Shown here piece by piece: positions 22,757-32,762 of a stretch of DNA of 50,967 bases. The first letter of the stretch is position 1. Each line of letters opens with the position of its first letter. Under the pieces are notes generated by a model. The model saw nothing but the letters and a program-made list of their open reading frames with translations. It searched no databases and was not told the origin of the DNA. A program made the translations under genes and the position numbers. Location: NCBI GenBank assembly GCA_007125545.1, contig SLDA01000240.1:1-50967 (forward strand), in the 5' to 3' direction. The DNA comes from Thermoflexales bacterium. Lineage in GTDB: Bacteria; Chloroflexota; Anaerolineae; B4-G1; SLSP01.

Positions 22757-23461
22757 TCAGGTGGCGAGCTGACCGTCTTTCAACTGCAAGATCATGTCCA
22801 CGTAGTCATCGACCAGGGGATCATGCGAGGCCATAAGCATGGTGATCTGTTCTTCATCGACGATCGTCTGAAAGAGTCCCAAGATTTCGCGTGCGGTCTC
22901 GCTGTCCAGTTCACCGGTCGGTTCATCCGCCAGCATCAAGCGCGGCTCATTCGCCAAGGAACGAGCAATCGCGACACGCTGTTGCTGACCGCCCGAAAGC
23001 TCGTATGGGCGGTGATCCGCCCATTTGCGCAACCCTACCAGATCTAGACAGTACATTGCCCGCTTGTGCCGTTCGCGAGCAGGGGCGCCTTTGATACGTA
23101 GCATAAGTTCAACATTCTCATAGGCAGACAGCGTCGGCAGCAATCCAAAGGATTGGAAGATGAAGCCCAATTGCTCGCGGCGCCAACGTGTGAGTTGCCG
23201 GTCATTCATTTCCGAAAGGTCATAGCCCAAGACGCGAGCACTCCCGCTGGTAGGCCGATCAAGGCCGCTCAGGCAGTTGAGCAGCGTCGTCTTGCCGCTA
23301 CCCGACCGCCCCTTGAGTGCAATGAAGTGACCGGGTTCGATCTCCAGATTCAAGCCGCGGAGGGCTTGCACCTCAATATTATTGCCGATCTTGTAGACAC
23401 GCCACAGATCCTCAGTCACAATCGCTAACTTGGTATCAGTCACTGCTAACCTAGTCGCCAT
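22757..23461 (-). CDS. ABC transporter ATP-binding protein (MacB/LolD type)
   Basis: A 234-residue ATPase subunit. Seen: Walker A GRSGSGKTT (51-59), Q-loop GFIFQSFGLLPTLSAYENV, signature LSGGQQQRVAIARSLAN, Walker [16 protein letters not shown] and the switch His in MLMASHDP. Length and the LFIFQ-type Q-loop region are those of the MacB/LolD/FtsE family, which power FtsX-like permeases without moving substrate through a channel themselves. GGAG lies six bases before the ATG; the upstream ATPase gene ends one base before it. It is the last gene of the adaptor - permease - ATPase - ATPase set and is followed by a strong terminator. Confidence 0.9.
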   Translation of the reverse strand: MATRLAVTDTKLAIVTEDLWRVYKIGNNIEVQALRGLNLEIEPGHFIALKGRSGSGKTTLLNCLSGLDRPTSGSARVLGYDLSEMNDRQLTRWRREQLGFIFQSFGLLPTLSAYENVELMLRIKGAPARERHKRAMYCLDLVGLRKWADHRPYELSGGQQQRVAIARSLANEPRLMLADEPTGELDSETAREILGLFQTIVDEEQITMLMASHDPLVDDYVDMILQLKDGQLAT

Positions 23462-23462
23462 A

Positions 23463-24587
23463 CTAATCTCCACGCTTATTCTTGAGCTCGCCGCGCGCGA
23501 TCCGAGCGAGAAGGCCGCTCAGTCCACGTCCCTTCTTGGCCTCCTCAAGGCCTGTCGCCAGTATCTCCGCGTCACGAACATGATCCAGATCAGTCGTATC
23601 AGTCGGCAACACCAGGATGCCGTCCTCAGTAAGCTCCAGGCGCACCCGACCTCGGATGCCAAACTGCTCCAAATACTCTTTGGGAATCTGCAGTCGTCCG
23701 GCAGCGTCCAACACAGTCAGTTCCTCGAAGACCTCTTCCTGCACCTCGTGCTCGGCCTCGATACTTTCCTTTGCACGAAGGCCCCGAACCCCATTGTTGG
23801 ACTTCGATCGGACCGTTTCCGTTGCCATGCGCCCATCGCGAATCGCGACAACACGGTCTACGTGGCGGGCGATACTGGGATCGTGACTAACAATTAGCAT
23901 AGTCAAGCCGAATTGACGATTGAGATCGCGGAATAATTCGTAGACCGCCAGGGCGGTGACAGAATCCAACTCTCCAGTGGGCTCGTCGGCCAGGACGAAC
24001 TTGGGGTTGTTCGCCAGGGCTACGGCAATCGCTACACGCTGCTGCTCACCACCCGATAACTCGGAGAGTTTGTGGCGCATCCGGTCTCCCAACCCGACGA
24101 CATCCAGCAGCTCTCCGGCTCGCTGGTTGACACGTCGTCCCGCCTGACCTGCTAATGTCATTGGGAGCTTGACGTTTTCCAGAGCATTGAGGTAGGGGAT
24201 CAGATTCCGAGCGCCATGTTGCCAGACAAACCCGACCTCCTCGCGCCGGTATTGATTGAGATCGCGGTTCGACAACTTGAGCAGATCCTTACCATCGACC
24301 CAAGCACGTCCGGCGGAGGGCCGGTCCAGGCCACCGAGCACATTCATCAAGGTGGACTTGCCGCTCCCGCTGGCTCCAACGATTCCAAGAAGCTCGCCCG
24401 TTTGGACGACCAGATCCAGGCCCTGCAAGGCCACCACCTCCAGATCCGCGACCTTATAGATTTTGACCAGGTTGTCGCAGACAATGAACGGCTTGGACCC
24501 TTCACTGCTTTGCGAACCATTTCGGTCAAAGCTGGTCTGGATAGAAGGCGTATTCAGCACAGGTGTCTCTATACGTTCTGCCATCAT
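23463..24587 (-). CDS. ABC transporter ATP-binding protein with C-terminal AbrB-like domain
   Basis: A 374-residue fusion. Seen: an N-terminal tail of 30 residues; a complete MacB/LolD-type ATPase with Walker [10 protein letters not shown] (71-79), signature [17 protein letters not shown], Walker [13 protein letters not shown] and switch SHDP; then a linker rich in acidic residues. A swapped-hairpin AbrB/SpoVT-like domain follows at about 289-328 ([20 protein letters not shown], then [15 protein letters not shown]), and a basic tail. AbrB-like domains usually dimerise and bind DNA (MazE, SpoVT). Here it could dimerise the ATPase or regulate the operon. The start is ATG 24587, with AAGGG upstream; a GTG two codons earlier is the alternative. 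It acts with the FtsX-type permease 62 bases upstream. Confidence 0.88.
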
Positions 24588-24649: not shown

Positions 24650-27538
24650 TCAGGCAGTCTCACCCAGTTTGACGGCCTCAAAAATCCTCATACGCCGCAA
24701 CATAATACCCAGCGCCACGAGCGCAACAACAAAGAGCATCGCAAATAGTTGATAAATCCGGAAAATCTCTGCCCAAGCGATATCGACGACATACGGCGGG
24801 ATACGGGAGGCCTCATCGACGCCGATCTGGAGAAAGGGAATGAAGAACTGACTGACGAAACCACCCAACGCGGTGCCCAGCCCTCCTCCGATCAAAATCA
24901 GGAAAGCCAATTCCCATGTCAGAAAAGCTGTCATATGCCGTGATGACAATCCGACAGCGCGCAACACACCGAACTCGATAAACCTACGACGGAAGGAAAA
25001 GAGCGCATACAACAAGAAACCGATGACCGTCAGGGCAGCTGCAGCGGCAAAGCCGACGGACAGAAGACCGAACAGCCCCTGGCGCTCCGGAAGCTCCTGT
25101 TCACGGGCGATAGCGACACCTGGGGCCAGCCAGTCGTGCACGAAAATATTGAGCTCTTCCTCGACAAGGACGGGAATGTCGGCCTCTGTGGAGAGACCCA
25201 TCCACACGCCGTAAGGCAGCTGCTCACCGGCTTGCTCGAAGAAATAGTCAGCATCACCGACGAAGAGTGGACCCTGCGAAGGATACCAGGTCGGAAAATA
25301 CTTGAACGTCCCAACAATCTGCGTATCGAGGGTTGTCCGCTGTCCATAGGCAGTCACCTCAAGACGCACCGAATCGCCAAGGGTAAGGATGTTCGCGTCT
25401 AAGAATTCTTCATTCACGAGGATGCCATTGCGCTGCAGTGCCAGTTTGTTCATCAACACACCAAGATTCTGAGAAGCGAAGTCATCCCGCCAGAAACCGA
25501 TGCCGGGGAATTGCGCACGGTCGAGGCCCATAAAGGATCCGAGCTCCCTGCCCGTCGTCGCACTTGCGATGGCGGGATAGACGACCACCCGTGTCACAGC
25601 CTCAACACCTGGAGCATTGAGGTACTCCGAGACGGGCAAGAAGTACCAGCGCGGCCCATCGTCCTCTTCCGTGTTGGTGTTGCCGCCCGCGCCGAAGAAT
25701 CCGCCCAATCCTCCGGAACTGGTGCCTTCGCCTCGATCCATAAAGCGCATATCGGCTCCGGCTGCATAGTAAGTCTTATCATAGAGGTGTTGATCCAGTG
25801 TGTGCGCGAGCGATGCAGTGAACGCGGACAGACTGAGGGTCAGCACAAGAAGAATCAGCGGTGTATTGTAGAAGCTCGGTGTTCGCGCCAGGTGACGAGC
25901 CGCCATTAAAAGGCCAACCGACTTCGTTCGCGCCGCAATCCAGGCGACTCCCGACATAAAGATAGGCATGAGGCGCAAGAAGAAGAGGGTCATCGCGAAA
26001 ATACCAAGAGCCGGGAACAGGAAGAGTAGGGGATTCTGCAATGGAGCACCACCGAGGCCACTCTCCAGTTCAACCACAGTACCCTGGTTTCGCAGCAGAT
26101 AGGCACCATAGCCAGCCGGAATAAGCAGGAGCACGTCTAGCCACATTCGCTGCCACCACGGCTTGCGCAGCATTCGAGCCACTTCCCGTTTGTACGACAC
26201 AACGGTGTGTCCTGCGGCACCGACGGTCGGGAGAATTTGTGCCGCGATGCCGATGAGTACGCCAACGGCGCCAAACCGTAACGTAGTTGCACTCAGCGAC
26301 ACGCGCAGCGAGGCCAACCCGGCAGAAAAATCCAGGAAGCTTCGTGCCTGACCGATCAACTGCGCGATGAACATCGCAACCGGAGCACTCAGCGCCAATG
26401 CGATAGCTCCGAGAAGCAGGCCCTCTAACGTCGCAATCCCCACCATCTGCGCTACCATTGCACCACGACTGCGAAGAACGGCGACCTCATTGCGACGCCG
26501 CTCCGTAGCTAGCGCTGCGGTGAGCGTGATGAAGGCCAGCAGCAGTCCCAGAATGGGAATGCTGAAAGCGTACAGGAGTATCGTCAGCAAGTTGGCCGAA
26601 CGCTGATAACTCACCAAGGCATCCAGCGGCGACCTACCTAGCGTCGTGTTCGGCAGCAAACCGGCAGCACGCTGTCGAACGGAGAGTGTACGCCGCACCA
26701 GGGGCATCGCGTCATTGTGATTAACGCTCTCTCCATCCAACATGATATTCCAGACAGCGGTGTAAACTTCCTTGTCCATCCTCGCACTGATGTTCGAGGC
26801 AAAGGTTTCTTCAGAAACCATCAGACGTTCGGAGAAGGCCCGAGGGCGAAAAAACCAGAAGCCGTCGTAAGGATCCTCGGGGATCCACACACCGACGATA
26901 CGCACCGGAAACTGTAAGTCCTTGACAAACCCATCATCGGCTCGGACCCGCGCATACGCGATATAGATCTCGTCAACCTGGAGTCCAAGCGTCGTCGCCA
27001 GATCCTCATGGATCATCGCCTCGATGGCAGAACCATCATCCGGCGCTGTGAAGCCGGGAAAGCGTCCTTCTGTGATATGAATATGGTTTTCGATGTCGCT
27101 AATGAAGGCGAAACCAGCCCAGACGAGAGGAGACGACGTGTTACTGAAAGCAGAATCGCGGTCGGCGAAGAGACCGAAGGGATCCGTGGTCATGTAGCGC
27201 ACGACCGACTGAAGCGGCAGGCCAAACCGCTCGCCAGCCTCGTGGGTCAGATAGGCGTCAACCGCCTGTAAATCCTCCCATTCCTTGCTGCCATAGATAC
27301 TGCCGTCGTAACGGAAGAGAAAACTAAAAGCAGGAATGGTGCCCTCGGGTGCACCTTCTTCTGTGATGTTGCGCAGGAAAACACGATGATAGACTGCATC
27401 CGCATAGGTTGGGATGCTCATCATCAAGGCGATAGCAACCACCAGCCCTAGCGTGGTTGCCACCACGAGCCAGGGCTGGGAGGTCACCCGTTTTGCTACA
27501 ACAACGAGAATCGCCCGAAGTCGGTTCAGGAATTTCAT
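24650..27538 (-). CDS. Large FtsX/MacB-type ABC transporter permease
   Basis: A 962-residue permease. Seen: an N-terminal membrane helix (WLVVATTLGLVVAIALMMS) followed by a large extracytoplasmic domain of about 270 residues; a first FtsX block with helices near 310-460 (LTILLYAFSIPILGLLLAFI, ERRRNEVAVLRSRGAM); two further helices near 490-530; a second extracytoplasmic domain; and a second FtsX block at the C-terminus (RRRFIEFGVLRAVGLSS). The two Glu/Arg-rich coupling loops are the typical ATPase contact of FtsX permeases. It is a double-FtsX permease working with the ATPases downstream and adaptor upstream. Its ATG starts one base after the adaptor stop and no clear ribosome site precedes it, so translation is probably coupled. 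Confidence 0.87.
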   Translation of the reverse strand: MKFLNRLRAILVVVAKRVTSQPWLVVATTLGLVVAIALMMSIPTYADAVYHRVFLRNITEEGAPEGTIPAFSFLFRYDGSIYGSKEWEDLQAVDAYLTHEAGERFGLPLQSVVRYMTTDPFGLFADRDSAFSNTSSPLVWAGFAFISDIENHIHITEGRFPGFTAPDDGSAIEAMIHEDLATTLGLQVDEIYIAYARVRADDGFVKDLQFPVRIVGVWIPEDPYDGFWFFRPRAFSERLMVSEETFASNISARMDKEVYTAVWNIMLDGESVNHNDAMPLVRRTLSVRQRAAGLLPNTTLGRSPLDALVSYQRSANLLTILLYAFSIPILGLLLAFITLTAALATERRRNEVAVLRSRGAMVAQMVGIATLEGLLLGAIALALSAPVAMFIAQLIGQARSFLDFSAGLASLRVSLSATTLRFGAVGVLIGIAAQILPTVGAAGHTVVSYKREVARMLRKPWWQRMWLDVLLLIPAGYGAYLLRNQGTVVELESGLGGAPLQNPLLFLFPALGIFAMTLFFLRLMPIFMSGVAWIAARTKSVGLLMAARHLARTPSFYNTPLILLVLTLSLSAFTASLAHTLDQHLYDKTYYAAGADMRFMDRGEGTSSGGLGGFFGAGGNTNTEEDDGPRWYFLPVSEYLNAPGVEAVTRVVVYPAIASATTGRELGSFMGLDRAQFPGIGFWRDDFASQNLGVLMNKLALQRNGILVNEEFLDANILTLGDSVRLEVTAYGQRTTLDTQIVGTFKYFPTWYPSQGPLFVGDADYFFEQAGEQLPYGVWMGLSTEADIPVLVEEELNIFVHDWLAPGVAIAREQELPERQGLFGLLSVGFAAAAALTVIGFLLYALFSFRRRFIEFGVLRAVGLSSRHMTAFLTWELAFLILIGGGLGTALGGFVSQFFIPFLQIGVDEASRIPPYVVDIAWAEIFRIYQLFAMLFVVALVALGIMLRRMRIFEAVKLGETA

Positions 27539-27539
27539 G

Positions 27540-28898
27540 CTACGGCGCGATAACGAGTTGTCCTTCGGTCACACCATCCAAGATTTCCAGACGCTCAGGA
27601 GAGCGGAGGCCAAGTCGAACATCAACCCGCCGCTGCGCGCCGGCTTCCTGAATGACCACAAACGAACGTCCTTCAAATGTACGCACAGCCTGTGGTGGAA
27701 GCCACAGAGTACCCTCGGAACGGTCTAACTCAACCGTCATACGAAATCGATCACCAATATTGTAGCCCGCCTCAACCGGATCGATATCGACCAGACTAAC
27801 GCGGACGGACTTATCCGCATCATCGACAGCCGACGAGCCTGAACCACCGCTGTAAGGATAGGGCAATCTACGAATTAATCCCGGTAACACCTCGCCGGGG
27901 CGGTTCATAAACTCAGCCGACAACTCCATACCTTCCGATAATTCGCTCTTCTCGCTGTCCGTCAAGTCAGCGATGATCTCGAGTTCGGTTGGATCTGCAA
28001 GGACGAGCATAGGCCGGTAGCCCTGAACTTGATTGCCTTCCGTGAGGTTGATCTGCAAAACCACACCGCTGAACGGAGCGACAATCCGCGCGTCGTTAAG
28101 CTGATCCTTCAAACGATTGACCGAGAGCACGGTACGGGTAATGTCAAGCCCTGCTCCTATCTCTGCGGCCCGGAGTTGTGCCATATCCAGAGCCATCTCT
28201 GCCATCTCGATATCATAAGCGGTGCGTTGGAGGCCGCGCAGGATGTCATTATATTGAGCCTCCGCGAGTTCCAGATTCCACTGCGCTTCCTGCACAGCAT
28301 TGGCGTAGGCTACGCGGACGTCTTCGCTTTCCCAGGAGCGGTCCAACGACTTATTGTACTCGTCCTGAGCGTGCGCAAGCCGCGTGCGTGCCCGTTCCAG
28401 ATTCTGGCGGGCGCTAAGCGTAGCGGCATCGCTGTTGCTGGCTCGAAGCTTGGCAAGGTTTAGCTCGGCAGTACGCACGCTGTTCTGTGCCTCTGTCATT
28501 CGCCGCTCGTGGTCCATCTGCACAGATCTCAGTTCAGTTTCCTGCTGGACAATCTGGTTCTTGAGATCTGTCACCTCAAGCTCAGCCAGCAGATCGCCTT
28601 CCTCGACCTCATCATTGCGGCGCACGTAGACGGACTCTACGTAACCGTTGGTCCTGAAGAAGAGCTCCTCCTCAAGGACCGGGGCGACACGTCCCGAGAA
28701 CTGCAGCAGTCGAATGACATCGCCCCGCTGCACCTCATAGGTGGGATTCGTCGGGACTACCGAGGTCGGAATAGGTGTGGGGGTTGCACTCTCACCGCTG
28801 CCGGTACCGACTGTCCCGGACGCACATGCACCTAACCCGACCATAATGCTAATCAAGACGAGAAAAGAGAGTGGTGTGGCTAGTCTCCATCGAGCCAT
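27540..28898 (-). CDS. HlyD/MacA-family adaptor lipoprotein
   Basis: A 452-residue membrane-fusion (adaptor) protein. Seen: a lipoprotein signal MARWRLATPLSFLVLISIMV with lipobox LGAC (Cys25); a Ser/Thr/Pro-rich linker; the biotinyl-lipoyl-like half FRTNGYVESVYVRRNDEVEE; a long alpha-helical coiled coil (about 115-280); the second lipoyl half IVAPFSGVVLQINLTEGNQV; then a beta-barrel and membrane-proximal domain. It is a partner of MacB-like permeases. The lipoprotein start ATG 28898 is preceded by AGGAGG about 10 bases away; the frame extends further upstream without merit. In a bacterium with a single membrane it would stay on the outer face of that membrane. It has its own promoter. Confidence 0.88.
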   Translation of the reverse strand: MARWRLATPLSFLVLISIMVGLGACASGTVGTGSGESATPTPIPTSVVPTNPTYEVQRGDVIRLLQFSGRVAPVLEEELFFRTNGYVESVYVRRNDEVEEGDLLAELEVTDLKNQIVQQETELRSVQMDHERRMTEAQNSVRTAELNLAKLRASNSDAATLSARQNLERARTRLAHAQDEYNKSLDRSWESEDVRVAYANAVQEAQWNLELAEAQYNDILRGLQRTAYDIEMAEMALDMAQLRAAEIGAGLDITRTVLSVNRLKDQLNDARIVAPFSGVVLQINLTEGNQVQGYRPMLVLADPTELEIIADLTDSEKSELSEGMELSAEFMNRPGEVLPGLIRRLPYPYSGGSGSSAVDDADKSVRVSLVDIDPVEAGYNIGDRFRMTVELDRSEGTLWLPPQAVRTFEGRSFVVIQEAGAQRRVDVRLGLRSPERLEILDGVTEGQLVIAP

Positions 28899-28940
28899 CA
28901 GATTGAATCCTCCTGCGTAAATGATATAGCCTAGGACATA

Positions 28941-28949
28941 ATCATACCA
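28941..28949 (-). promoter_or_regulatory. Extended -10 promoter of the adaptor-permease-ATPase operon
   Basis: On the minus strand TGG is followed by TATGAT (28941-28946); transcription should begin near 28934, some 36 bases before the adaptor start codon. The -35 region is poor. Confidence 0.45.
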
Positions 28950-29017
28950 CGAATGAGCGCAAAAAACAGCCACTCTTTCCGCGGCCTGGGAACTAATGAT
29001 TGTGTCCGGGGTGGGCC

Positions 29018-29040
29018 GGGGCGGCTGCAAAGACCGCCCC
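29018..29040. terminator. G+C-rich stem-loop after the third ABC exporter gene
   Basis: GGGGCGG (29018-29024) pairs with CCGCCCC (29034-29040) across nine bases, just after the stop of the exporter gene. No T-run is present on the minus strand. It may reduce read-through into the next operon. Confidence 0.4.
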
Positions 29041-29066
29041 ATCCATCGCCTAAGTGCTCGCCAATG

Positions 29067-30860
29067 CTAAACGCGTGTACCTGCAGCAACCTGCCGTCGT
29101 TCACGGATCTCAGCGTAACGAGGCTCCAACTCATTCTGTACCTCGTTCAACTGACGGTAAAGCCCCATCTCTGCCATCAACCCTTCATGCGTACCTTGCT
29201 GCGTGATGTGACTTTCCTCCAAGACCACAATCTTATCAGCACTTCGAATAGTTGACAAGCGGTGCGCGATGATGATTGTCGTTCGCCCTACCATTAATCG
29301 TTCCAGCGCCTCCTGGATCAGAAGCTCGGTCTGCGTGTCTACTGAGGAGGTGGCCTCATCAAGAATCAAAATCGGCGCATCCTTCAATACCGCCCTCGCG
29401 ATTGCGAGTCGCTGCTTTTGACCACCGGAGAGCTTCACACCTCGTTCGCCGATGATTGTCTCGTAGCCGTCCGGAAGATCGATAAGGAATTGGTGAGCGT
29501 TAGCGATCTTCGCAGCTTCAATCAGTTCGTCGTCTGTCGCATCCGGTCGTCCAAAGAGAATGTTCTCCCGCGCAGTACCATGAAAAAGGAAAACATCCTG
29601 CAGCACGATACTAATTTGGCGACGCAAGCTCCTCAAGGTGTAGTCGCGAATGTTGCGACCATCCAACCAAATGGCGCCCTCTATCACGTCATAGAAACGG
29701 GGAATCAAGCTAGCCAGCGTACTTTTCCCTACTCCCGTGGGTCCTACCAATGCAACCACATTGCCGGCAGGAATCTCGATGTTGATATCTTCCAGCACCG
29801 GCTGTCCAGGAACGTAGTGGAAGTTAACATTCTCCAGTTTGAGATAACCCTTGGCTCGCCCCTGAAGATCCAACGCATCGGATCTTTCTACGACATCTGC
29901 CTGTTCCTGCAACAGCTCAGCCACCCGTTCGGCCCCGGCCATAGCGTGCTGAACATTCTCCCAAGCCCCACTTAGCGCACGGACCGGCGTGTAGAAGTAG
30001 TTGAGGTAGAGGAAAAAAGCCACAAGTTCATCCAGGGGCAGCGTCTGCTGCAGCACCATTCGTCCACCGAAGTAGATCAACACCACTGTACCCAGTGACG
30101 AGGAAAAGCCGACGAAGGGCTGGAAAGTCGCCATCAACCGGAGCGCTTTGAGCAAGGAATCACGATAGCGGCTGATGTGCTTGCCGATACGATCCGCCTC
30201 GATATCCTCACGCGTGAATGCCTTGATCTCGCGAATGCCCGAGAGATTGTCATTCAGCGTGGCGTTTAGGTCACCGAGTTCCTTCTGCCGCTCCCGAAAA
30301 GCTGGACGAACGTACGTTGAGAATCCCCGCGCCGCAACCACAATGAACGGAATCGGAATGAGCGTCAGCAGCATCAGGGTCGGGCTGTAGCTGAATAGAA
30401 TTACGGCTACGCCGACAAACATCAGGACATTAACCACTGAATCGGGAATCGCGTGCGCGATCAATGTCTCGAACATATCGGAGTCATTGACCATTCGCGA
30501 CATCAAGTCGCCTGTCTTGCGGTCCTCATAGAAGCGGAGTGAAAGCAGCTGTAAATGACGGTATACATCGCGGCGAGCATCAGCAACTGCCCCCCACCCA
30601 GCCACGTGCGACATATAACTGCGGACGAACTGCAGAACACCTATGAACAGGTAAATGAACAACGACGCAATCGCCAGGCGGCCAATCACCCCCATCGATT
30701 GGGTCAGTTCACCCGGTTCCTGGATAAGCGCAATCATCCGCCTGATGATCTGCGGTTCCACCAGTTGTGCACCGGTCAATAGAAACATGGCGACAACAGT
30801 AAGCACCAAGGCTTTTCTATAGTTCCTAGTATAGCCAAAGAGAAATTTGAGCGTCTTCAT
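29067..30860 (-). CDS. ABC half-exporter with canonical ATP sites (third of three)
   Basis: A 597-residue MsbA/LmrA-type half-transporter: six-helix membrane domain followed by an ATPase domain. Seen: membrane helices from residue 15 onward; coupling region GIREIKAFTREDIE; Walker A VGPTGVGKST; Q-loop VLQDVFLFHGTARENI; canonical signature LSGGQKQRLAIARAVL; Walker B LILDEATSSVDT with the catalytic Glu; and switch His in IIIAHRLST. All motifs are intact, so it can work as a homodimer. The start is ATG 30860, with AAAGG six bases upstream; a TTG two codons earlier is possible. It follows the second exporter gene by 66 bases and belongs to the MarR-headed operon. Confidence 0.9.
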   Translation of the reverse strand: MKTLKFLFGYTRNYRKALVLTVVAMFLLTGAQLVEPQIIRRMIALIQEPGELTQSMGVIGRLAIASLFIYLFIGVLQFVRSYMSHVAGWGAVADARRDVYRHLQLLSLRFYEDRKTGDLMSRMVNDSDMFETLIAHAIPDSVVNVLMFVGVAVILFSYSPTLMLLTLIPIPFIVVAARGFSTYVRPAFRERQKELGDLNATLNDNLSGIREIKAFTREDIEADRIGKHISRYRDSLLKALRLMATFQPFVGFSSSLGTVVLIYFGGRMVLQQTLPLDELVAFFLYLNYFYTPVRALSGAWENVQHAMAGAERVAELLQEQADVVERSDALDLQGRAKGYLKLENVNFHYVPGQPVLEDINIEIPAGNVVALVGPTGVGKSTLASLIPRFYDVIEGAIWLDGRNIRDYTLRSLRRQISIVLQDVFLFHGTARENILFGRPDATDDELIEAAKIANAHQFLIDLPDGYETIIGERGVKLSGGQKQRLAIARAVLKDAPILILDEATSSVDTQTELLIQEALERLMVGRTTIIIAHRLSTIRSADKIVVLEESHITQQGTHEGLMAEMGLYRQLNEVQNELEPRYAEIRERRQVAAGTRV

Positions 30861-30926
30861 CTCCAACCTTTCATTATTATTGGTCGAAACCGACCGGCAG
30901 GGCGGATGGGTTAGGCAGGAGCCGTA

Positions 30927-32762
30927 TCAAGCCCCCAAGGAACCGGCCTCGACAAACTGTCGCTCATACAAGTCGCGATAGAGGCCCTTCTGCGCCAATA
31001 GCACTTCGTGAGATCCTTGCTCGACGATTTGCCCATCCTCAATTACGCAGATAAAGTCTGCTTTCCGGATGGTACTAAGCCGGTGGGCGATGACAATGGC
31101 CGTGCGCCCAGCTAGCAAACGATCTAGTGCGTCTTGGATCAGAGCTTCGGTCATCGTATCCACACTCGAAGTCGCCTCATCGAGTATCAGAATCCGCGGA
31201 TCGGCCAAAACCGCCCGTGCGATGCAGAGCAACTGACGCTGCCCCAAAGAGAAGTTAACCCCGCCTTCTTGGATCTGCGTCTGATAGCCCTCCGGCGTCT
31301 GCATAATGAACTCATCAACATTTGCCAGACGGGCCGCTTTTTTGACCTCTTCATCCGATGCATCAGGGTCGCCGAAGCGTATGTTGTCAGCAATTGTACC
31401 AGAGAAAAGAAAAGGGTCTTGGGGCACAATGCCCATCTGCCGGCGGAGCGATCGCTGTTTGACGTCGCGAACATCCATGCCATCGACCAGTACAGTCCCT
31501 TCGGTCACGTCATAGAAGCGCGCGATCAGGTTCGAGATCGAAGTCTTCCCGGCACCGGTTGGCCCCACCAGCGCCACCGTCTGTCCCGGCTCGATCGTCA
31601 GATTGATGTTGCGAAGGATGGGCTCATCTTGACGATAGGCAAAGGTGACATCCCGCAGCTCGACGCGTCCCTCGACTTGGGGCATCTCCTCCGCGTCCTC
31701 TCGATCTGGCACGCCCGGCTCTGTGTCGAGCAGGTGCAAAACTCGCTCGCCACCGGCCATCGCCGTCTGCATTGTCGTGTAGAGCTGGCTCAGTTCCCGA
31801 ATCGGCTGGAAGAAGTTGGTGACATACGCGAGAAAGGCAATCATCACACCTAATGTCAGCGTGTTGCCCGCCACCGCTCGCCCACCAAACCACAGGACGA
31901 TGGCGGTCGCCAGTGCGCCCAAAAACTGAACCACGGGCATGAAGACAAAGGACAAGGACATCGCCCGAACGTGAGCATCACGGTTGGAGCTATTCACCTG
32001 ATCGAAACGGTCTTGAGTTGCATCCTCCTGAGCGAACGCCTGGATCACGCGCATACCGGCCAAATCCTCAGCCAGGTCGCCCACAACCTCGGCAACAGCA
32101 GCGCGCGTCTCCCGGTACGCCCGCTTCGCGAACCGTGCATAGATAGCCGTCACCAGGACCATAAGTGGTACCACGCTGAAGGTAAGCAGAGCTAATACAG
32201 GGCTCATCGACATCATCACGATTACGATACCCACCAAGGTAAAGATATCGCTGGCGATGGTGATCAAACCCTGGGAGAGCAGGTCGTTGATCACACCGAC
32301 ATCGCTGAAGACCCGCGACAACGTCACACCAATGATATGGGTGTCGTGATAGCCAAGATGAATATCTTGAAGGTGGTGTACCAACTGCTCACGCATATCG
32401 GCCAGGACATTCTGCCCGGTCTTTGACAGCAGGTATTGCTGTGCACCCGAAGCCACATAGAGTCCTATGAACGCGCCTGCCGTGAGCATCGCGATGCGAT
32501 CCAGCCCGGCCAGATTGCTATCCATTATATGCTCATCCACGGCGACCTTGATCAGATAAGGGGTAGCCAAGCCCAGACCAGAGGTGATTACCATCAGAAA
32601 GAACGCAGCCACCATACTACGCCAGTACGGCTTGATAAAAACGAAGAGCCGCAAGATGATGCGGATATCGAGCGCACGCTGCTCTTCTTCGTCCCCCCCC
32701 AGCCGTCGTAACAGACCGCCGGGGCCGCCGCCCATACTCGTTGATCCGATAGAAAAACTCAT
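30927..32762 (-). CDS. ABC half-exporter with altered signature motif (second of three)
   Basis: A 611-residue half-transporter: a cytoplasmic N-terminal tail of about 30 residues, a six-helix membrane domain and an ATPase domain. Seen: coupling region GMRVIQAFAQEDAT; Walker A VGPTGAGKTS; Q-loop GIVPQDPFLFSGTIADNI; signature changed to FSLGQRQLLCIARAVL instead of LSGGQ; Walker B LILDEATSSVDT with the catalytic Glu; switch His in VIAHRLST. A degenerate signature with intact Walker B and His is the mark of one partner in heterodimeric exporters such as TM287/288 and BmrCD. The other partner is the adjacent upstream gene. GGGAG lies a few bases before the ATG; gap to the upstream gene is 11 bases. 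Confidence 0.92.
   Translation of the reverse strand: MSFSIGSTSMGGGPGGLLRRLGGDEEEQRALDIRIILRLFVFIKPYWRSMVAAFFLMVITSGLGLATPYLIKVAVDEHIMDSNLAGLDRIAMLTAGAFIGLYVASGAQQYLLSKTGQNVLADMREQLVHHLQDIHLGYHDTHIIGVTLSRVFSDVGVINDLLSQGLITIASDIFTLVGIVIVMMSMSPVLALLTFSVVPLMVLVTAIYARFAKRAYRETRAAVAEVVGDLAEDLAGMRVIQAFAQEDATQDRFDQVNSSNRDAHVRAMSLSFVFMPVVQFLGALATAIVLWFGGRAVAGNTLTLGVMIAFLAYVTNFFQPIRELSQLYTTMQTAMAGGERVLHLLDTEPGVPDREDAEEMPQVEGRVELRDVTFAYRQDEPILRNINLTIEPGQTVALVGPTGAGKTSISNLIARFYDVTEGTVLVDGMDVRDVKQRSLRRQMGIVPQDPFLFSGTIADNIRFGDPDASDEEVKKAARLANVDEFIMQTPEGYQTQIQEGGVNFSLGQRQLLCIARAVLADPRILILDEATSSVDTMTEALIQDALDRLLAGRTAIVIAHRLSTIRKADFICVIEDGQIVEQGSHEVLLAQKGLYRDLYERQFVEAGSLGA

Follow-up and report, generated by a model that had tools for sequence, protein, structure and literature searches.

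MetN and MalK are ABC ATPases in which a C-terminal domain regulates the transporter. The ATPase gene described here was found in a 50,967-nt stretch of DNA (the window, meaning the whole stretch that was analysed; contig SLDA01000240.1 of assembly GCA_007125545.1) from a Thermoflexales bacterium of the phylum Chloroflexota, and it likewise carries behind a complete ATPase a small C-terminal domain that could pair subunits or regulate, but the fold of this domain is different, the ATPase is of the exporter and not the importer type, and only one of two ATPases is tailed. With the MacB/LolD/YbbA-type (type VII) transporters the locus shares the sequence and fold of the nucleotide-binding domain (NBD), an FtsX permease with large ectodomains and a HlyD/MacA-like adaptor, and differs from them by its separate NBD, its two different ATPases, a fused double permease and an AbrB tail. 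The tail resembles AbrB, SpoVT, MazE and MraZ in profile, in predicted fold and in the core motif D-x-x-G-R-L-x-(I/L)-P; unlike these it is fused to an ATPase, lacks most of the basic DNA-face residues and has a loop two residues shorter ('GD' turn lost). The parts themselves are of known kinds, and the novelty lies in how they are combined, in a DNA face that has been lost and in the lone-engine arrangement described below. A search of open-access journal papers found none on an ATPase-AbrB fusion.

Our main reading, to which we give a probability of roughly 0.55, is that the fusion gene would encode the tailed subunit (A) of an asymmetric two-ATPase engine in a type VII (MacB/FtsX-like) transporter, with the tailed ATPase in one seat of the double-FtsX permease and the neighbouring plain ATPase (B) in the other, and that the tail, as a swapped-hairpin half-barrel of the AbrB superfamily with its core kept and its basic DNA-contact face mostly lost, would pair two such transporters. 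Such pairing would most likely join two A/B transporters through their A subunits at the cytoplasmic face, perhaps coupling the ATPase cycles of both.

The genes share the minus strand and look like an operon, in the order HlyD-type adaptor, double-FtsX permease, fusion ATPase and plain ATPase (ATP2) (Table 1), with two ABC-membrane exporters upstream (29067-32762). The context preceding ATG 24587 of the fusion ATPase is AGGGTGAGAATG, and an alternative start (GTG 24593) would make the protein 2 aa longer. The ATG of ATP2 begins one base past the stop of the fusion, with a GGAG within the last codons of the latter. The true start of the HlyD/MacA-like protein is probably the internal Met ahead of MARWRLATPLSF. 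By analogy, the adaptor and the MacB-like permease suggest that an envelope-associated or amphipathic compound may be exported or extracted.

Table 1. Features of the locus, with positions in the window
Feature	Position	Strand	Basis and remarks
Partner plain ATPase (ATP2), without AbrB tail	22757..23461	minus	ATG 23461; ORF list has GTG 23473
Fusion ATPase CDS, 374 aa	23463..24587	minus	ATG 24587, stop TAG 23465-23463
C-terminal helix, residues 335-365	23493..23585	minus	AF2 model and alignment; kept in closest relatives only
AbrB-type swapped-hairpin domain, residues 286-328	23604..23732	minus	Profile, alignment, AF2 and fold comparisons
MacB/LolD-type NBD, residues 35-255	23823..24485	minus	PF00005, TIGR02211, motifs; bears the W-Q...RNLxPYL Q-loop of its clade
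Permease, 962 aa, two FtsX halves	24650..27538	minus	PF02687 in two stretches, hydropathy
HlyD/MacA-like membrane-fusion protein, lipoprotein-like signal	27540..29042	minus	PF16576, PF13533

The complete MacB/LolD-type ATPase proposed in the earlier note was borne out, the NBD scoring 235 bits with TIGR02211 and 2.7e-31 with PF00005 and having all catalytic motifs (Walker A, LSGG, Walker B-Glu and H-loop). The nearest family is MacB/LolD, and the top Foldseek match of the NBD was the MacB NBD (42% identity). The protein stays below the NCBIfam cut-off for the LolD equivalog (235.1 versus 307.75 bits) and is not a MacB proper, with ATPase and permease encoded by separate genes and 207 versus 966 bits for PRK10535. 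The permease follows the type VII (FtsX/MacB) plan twice, with two PF02687 matches and a hydropathy pattern in which the unit TM1-ectodomain-TM2-4 is repeated with an extra TM in between; as both units lie in one chain, the permease should offer two ATPase seats.

The earlier note had also recognised an AbrB/SpoVT domain at about residues 289-328, and an AbrB-like match was indeed found in the C-terminal region. Taken alone, the tail of the window protein is below the curated HMM cut-offs (TIGR01439 5.1e-5, 22.9 versus 28.3 bits; PF04014 E 0.0025, 18.2 versus 24.7 bits). For the homologous tails as a family, the best values were 8.8e-8 with TIGR01439 and 1.9e-5 with PF04014, and at E <= 0.01 these profiles matched 19 and 20 of 44 tails, respectively. 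Scores of single tails against a small AbrB HMM profile were only weakly separated from those of shuffles (23/104 beat the best shuffle), and the domain call therefore rests on profile-profile and fold comparisons. Alignment of the tails to stand-alone AbrB proteins using hhalign gave a probability of 95.1% (E 2.9e-8) over the entire domain of about 40 aa, the sole gap being two residues missing at the 'GD' turn. In the AF2 monomer model of residues 278-374 the core of the AbrB domain has a pLDDT of 84-93 and the beta-beta-alpha-beta-beta half-barrel fold of the AbrB/SpoVT superfamily, and the top PDB matches in Foldseek (2w1t, 1z0r, 1yfb and 9a4b) are SpoVT, AbrB and their relatives; with VIA-align included, the best matches comprise SpoVT, AbrB, VapB and MazE. 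VIA-align placed AbrB models first (Z 4.5 and 4.2), with 1.8 A over 49 residues for 9a4b (Z 4.5), a low score being expected for a 45-residue domain. E289, D294, G297, R298 and P302 are invariant across 69 Chloroflexota relatives, and conservation of the tail in more than one phylum rules out chance. A sequence search of the PDB also returned SRP54 over the VLDxAGRLxI motif of the tail. We consider it extremely improbable that the AbrB likeness is just this motif, common with SRP54-type GTPases, in an otherwise unrelated linker, and the motif was rejected as the source of the match, since the alignment continues beyond it through the helix and both later strands and the predicted fold resembles AbrB-superfamily structures. 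Judged by profile comparison and predicted structure, residues 286-328 belong to the AbrB/SpoVT swapped-hairpin superfamily.

In Bacillus subtilis AbrB the proposed DNA face consists of R8, R15, R23 and R24, and an R15A exchange made binding fivefold weaker without abolishing it, and also altered the oligomer state (PMC4022651). The corresponding residues were compared between 104 distinct fusion domains and 32 stand-alone Chloroflexota AbrB proteins, the latter being canonical AbrB proteins selected by HMM and not MraZ proteins, whose sequences are no less close. AbrB positions 9, 13, 23 and 24 are basic in 0, 0, 9 and 3% of the fusion domains versus 50, 88, 100 and 59% of the stand-alone proteins. 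The main residues of the fusions at positions 8, 9, 13, 23 and 24 are Val/Ala, Val, Ala, Leu and Glu/Asp, and of the AbrB basic set (R8/K9, K13, R15, R23, R24) only Arg15 is retained (96%). The mean net charge of the equivalent stretch is -0.9 in fusions and +1.2 in stand-alone AbrB (P 5e-5), alone a modest signal, for which reason the comparison was made by residue position. The core positions 10, 16, 18, 22, 26, 28, 34, 36, 43 and 45 are hydrophobic in 95-100% of the fusion domains.

A tail that retains the barrel but little of the canonical DNA face fits protein-protein pairing better than gene control. We read the tail, from its residue pattern, as a dimerisation or docking module, and a non-DNA protein-pairing function of some kind is highly probable. 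The earlier note had left the choice between a DNA-binding and a dimerisation module, of which dimerisation remains the best functional reading, and its suggestion that export could be coupled to gene control found no support in the residues at positions 9, 13, 23 and 24. Continued binding of DNA or RNA by the tail, with export coupled to gene control or the transporter tethered to the nucleoid, would accord with the origin of the tail in the AbrB superfamily, with Arg15, with basic residues at 303 (72%) and 314 (99%) that might permit binding by another face, and with the Arg23 kept in 9/104 domains; we nevertheless judge it improbable, given the lowered net charge, the absence of the basic residues at the four positions from 91-100% of the fusions when they are mostly present in the controls, and the lack of a single fusion with a basic residue at 9 or 13. 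Apart from Arg15, the tail has mostly lost the basic DNA-face residues of an AbrB-type transcription factor. The most degenerate tails were seen in divergent fusions of Actinomycetota (L162-L164; genomes G350 and G321), where Asp11 and the Arg of Gly-Arg are lost ('VVGPTGSLHLP').

In Chloroflexota, a search with the tail recovered the fusion from 88 of 301 genomes sampled; it is also present in 9 of 296 Actinomycetota genomes and is not a local accident. In all, 40 named Chloroflexota loci carry it. There was no match in 149 Acidobacteriota and 141 Myxococcota genomes, where an empty result is no proof of absence. The full-length profile detected the fusion in 28/101 Chloroflexota genomes and split tailed (E <= 6e-94) cleanly from tail-less ATPases (E >= 1.7e-83). 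In a tree of the ATPase domain only, the fused ATPases form one clade with support of 97/89 (59 fusions and one row, L069, for which no tail was called and whose gene is close to the end of its contig), and a 99/99 branch separates this clade from the partner ATPases. A single gain of the AbrB tail, with hardly any later loss, is probable. The fusion, which the earlier note called unusual, is so among ATPases in general; within its own clade it is the standard. A DNA-binding fold appears in this case to have been joined to a transport ATPase a single time and maintained in two phyla, with most of its DNA-binding face lost, and the tail could lead annotation pipelines to miscall the fusion ATPase as a regulator. 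Elsewhere in the genome of the window, a 431-aa radical-SAM/SPASM protein (L083:1435-2730, contig C432), encoded behind a membrane permease gene, has an N-terminal AbrB-like domain (TIGR01439 sub-threshold, E 0.001) and provides a second case of this fold joined to an enzyme.

Of the 106 distinct fusions for which the downstream sequence suffices, 101 are directly followed by a plain ATPase on the same strand, and the remaining 5 lack an adjacent same-strand partner. With few exceptions, fused and partner ATPases alike have Walker A, Walker B and the H-loop, and the W-Q...RNLxP Q-loop marks the fused ATPases and is absent from every partner; together with the AbrB tail, the longer form of this Q-loop given in Table 1 is a sequence signature of a two-ATPase subtype among MacB/FtsX-like transporters. 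The second copy in Litorilinea is a natural single chain of ATPase A, AbrB and ATPase B (681 aa; L181:1880-3925, G306 contig 39) downstream of the end of an FtsX permease gene, which indicates that A and B work together, as far as one metagenome-assembled draft genome can tell. This chain is flanked on both sides by oxidoreductase-like genes. We infer an A/B heteromer and regard an asymmetric two-ATPase engine as likely. The reading of long open frames (490-930 aa) at some of the fusion loci as permease-ATPase fusions was rejected, since the upstream parts of these frames miss the permease profile and probably reflect frame overlap.

Two copies are needed to complete the barrel, so that pairing of A subunits from two transporters is the most likely role of the tail; that such a dimer would bridge two whole transporters is proposed tentatively. 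The tail could instead act in a single copy, as a docking or regulatory domain that binds the permease, the partner ATPase or a ligand within one transporter. Each A/B pair has one tail only, the Litorilinea chain could put it between both ATPases, E289 (97%) and R314 (99%) are conserved family-specific positions, and the linker from the ATPase to the tail is short (median 19 aa across fusions), all of which a single-copy domain would accommodate. However, AbrB barrels are known as obligate dimers, conservation of the entire core would be superfluous in a lone half-barrel, and the tails of ATP2 (up to 140 aa in Dehalococcoidia) showed by eye no AbrB-like sequence that could serve as a partner. 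We consider the single-copy alternative rather unlikely, and retain pairing between two A subunits as the preferred reading.

In four genomes (three Dehalococcoidia and one SAR202) the A-B pair is apart from any permease, and each of these genomes has 2-4 double-FtsX permeases of 1080-1235 aa with no neighbouring ATPases. Where read, these orphan permeases are adjacent tandem or divergent pairs (G305 C228 and C267; G304 C24; G892 C14 and C12); the arrangement of the pair in G893 C151 was deduced solely from hit positions. At E <= 1e-50 the remaining MacB-type ATPases of the four genomes adjoin permeases of their own. With no other free MacB-type ATPase at this threshold, the A-B pair may drive the orphan permeases, a conclusion by elimination from draft genomes, and one shared A-B engine serving them is suggested for Dehalococcoidia. 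The paired orphan permeases fit a tail dimer bridging two permeases and are no proof of it. More generally, the lineage might be a paired type VII machine in which the half-barrel, stripped of DNA binding, joins two A/B modules and with them two permeases, and the Dehalococcoidia engine serves several permease pairs, a proposal we hold to be doubtful. A precedent for sharing is MsmK of Streptococcus suis, reported to be a single ATPase shared by several permeases (PMC4519317); there the permeases belong to sugar importers, whereas the Dehalococcoidia case concerns a two-ATPase pair and FtsX permeases and is argued by elimination only. With the lone ATPase pair and the orphan permeases, the sharing of an engine can be put to the test for this class of transporter.

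In the Dehalococcoidia loci L053-L066, a pst/phoU phosphate cluster and a small unassigned membrane protein (approximately 190 aa, no Pfam match) are found upstream of the lone A-B pair, as read in L053 and L056. The partner ATPases of L052-L066 have a conserved acidic C-terminal extension of 110-140 aa ending in RPxWARP, which was observed in this Dehalococcoidia group alone.
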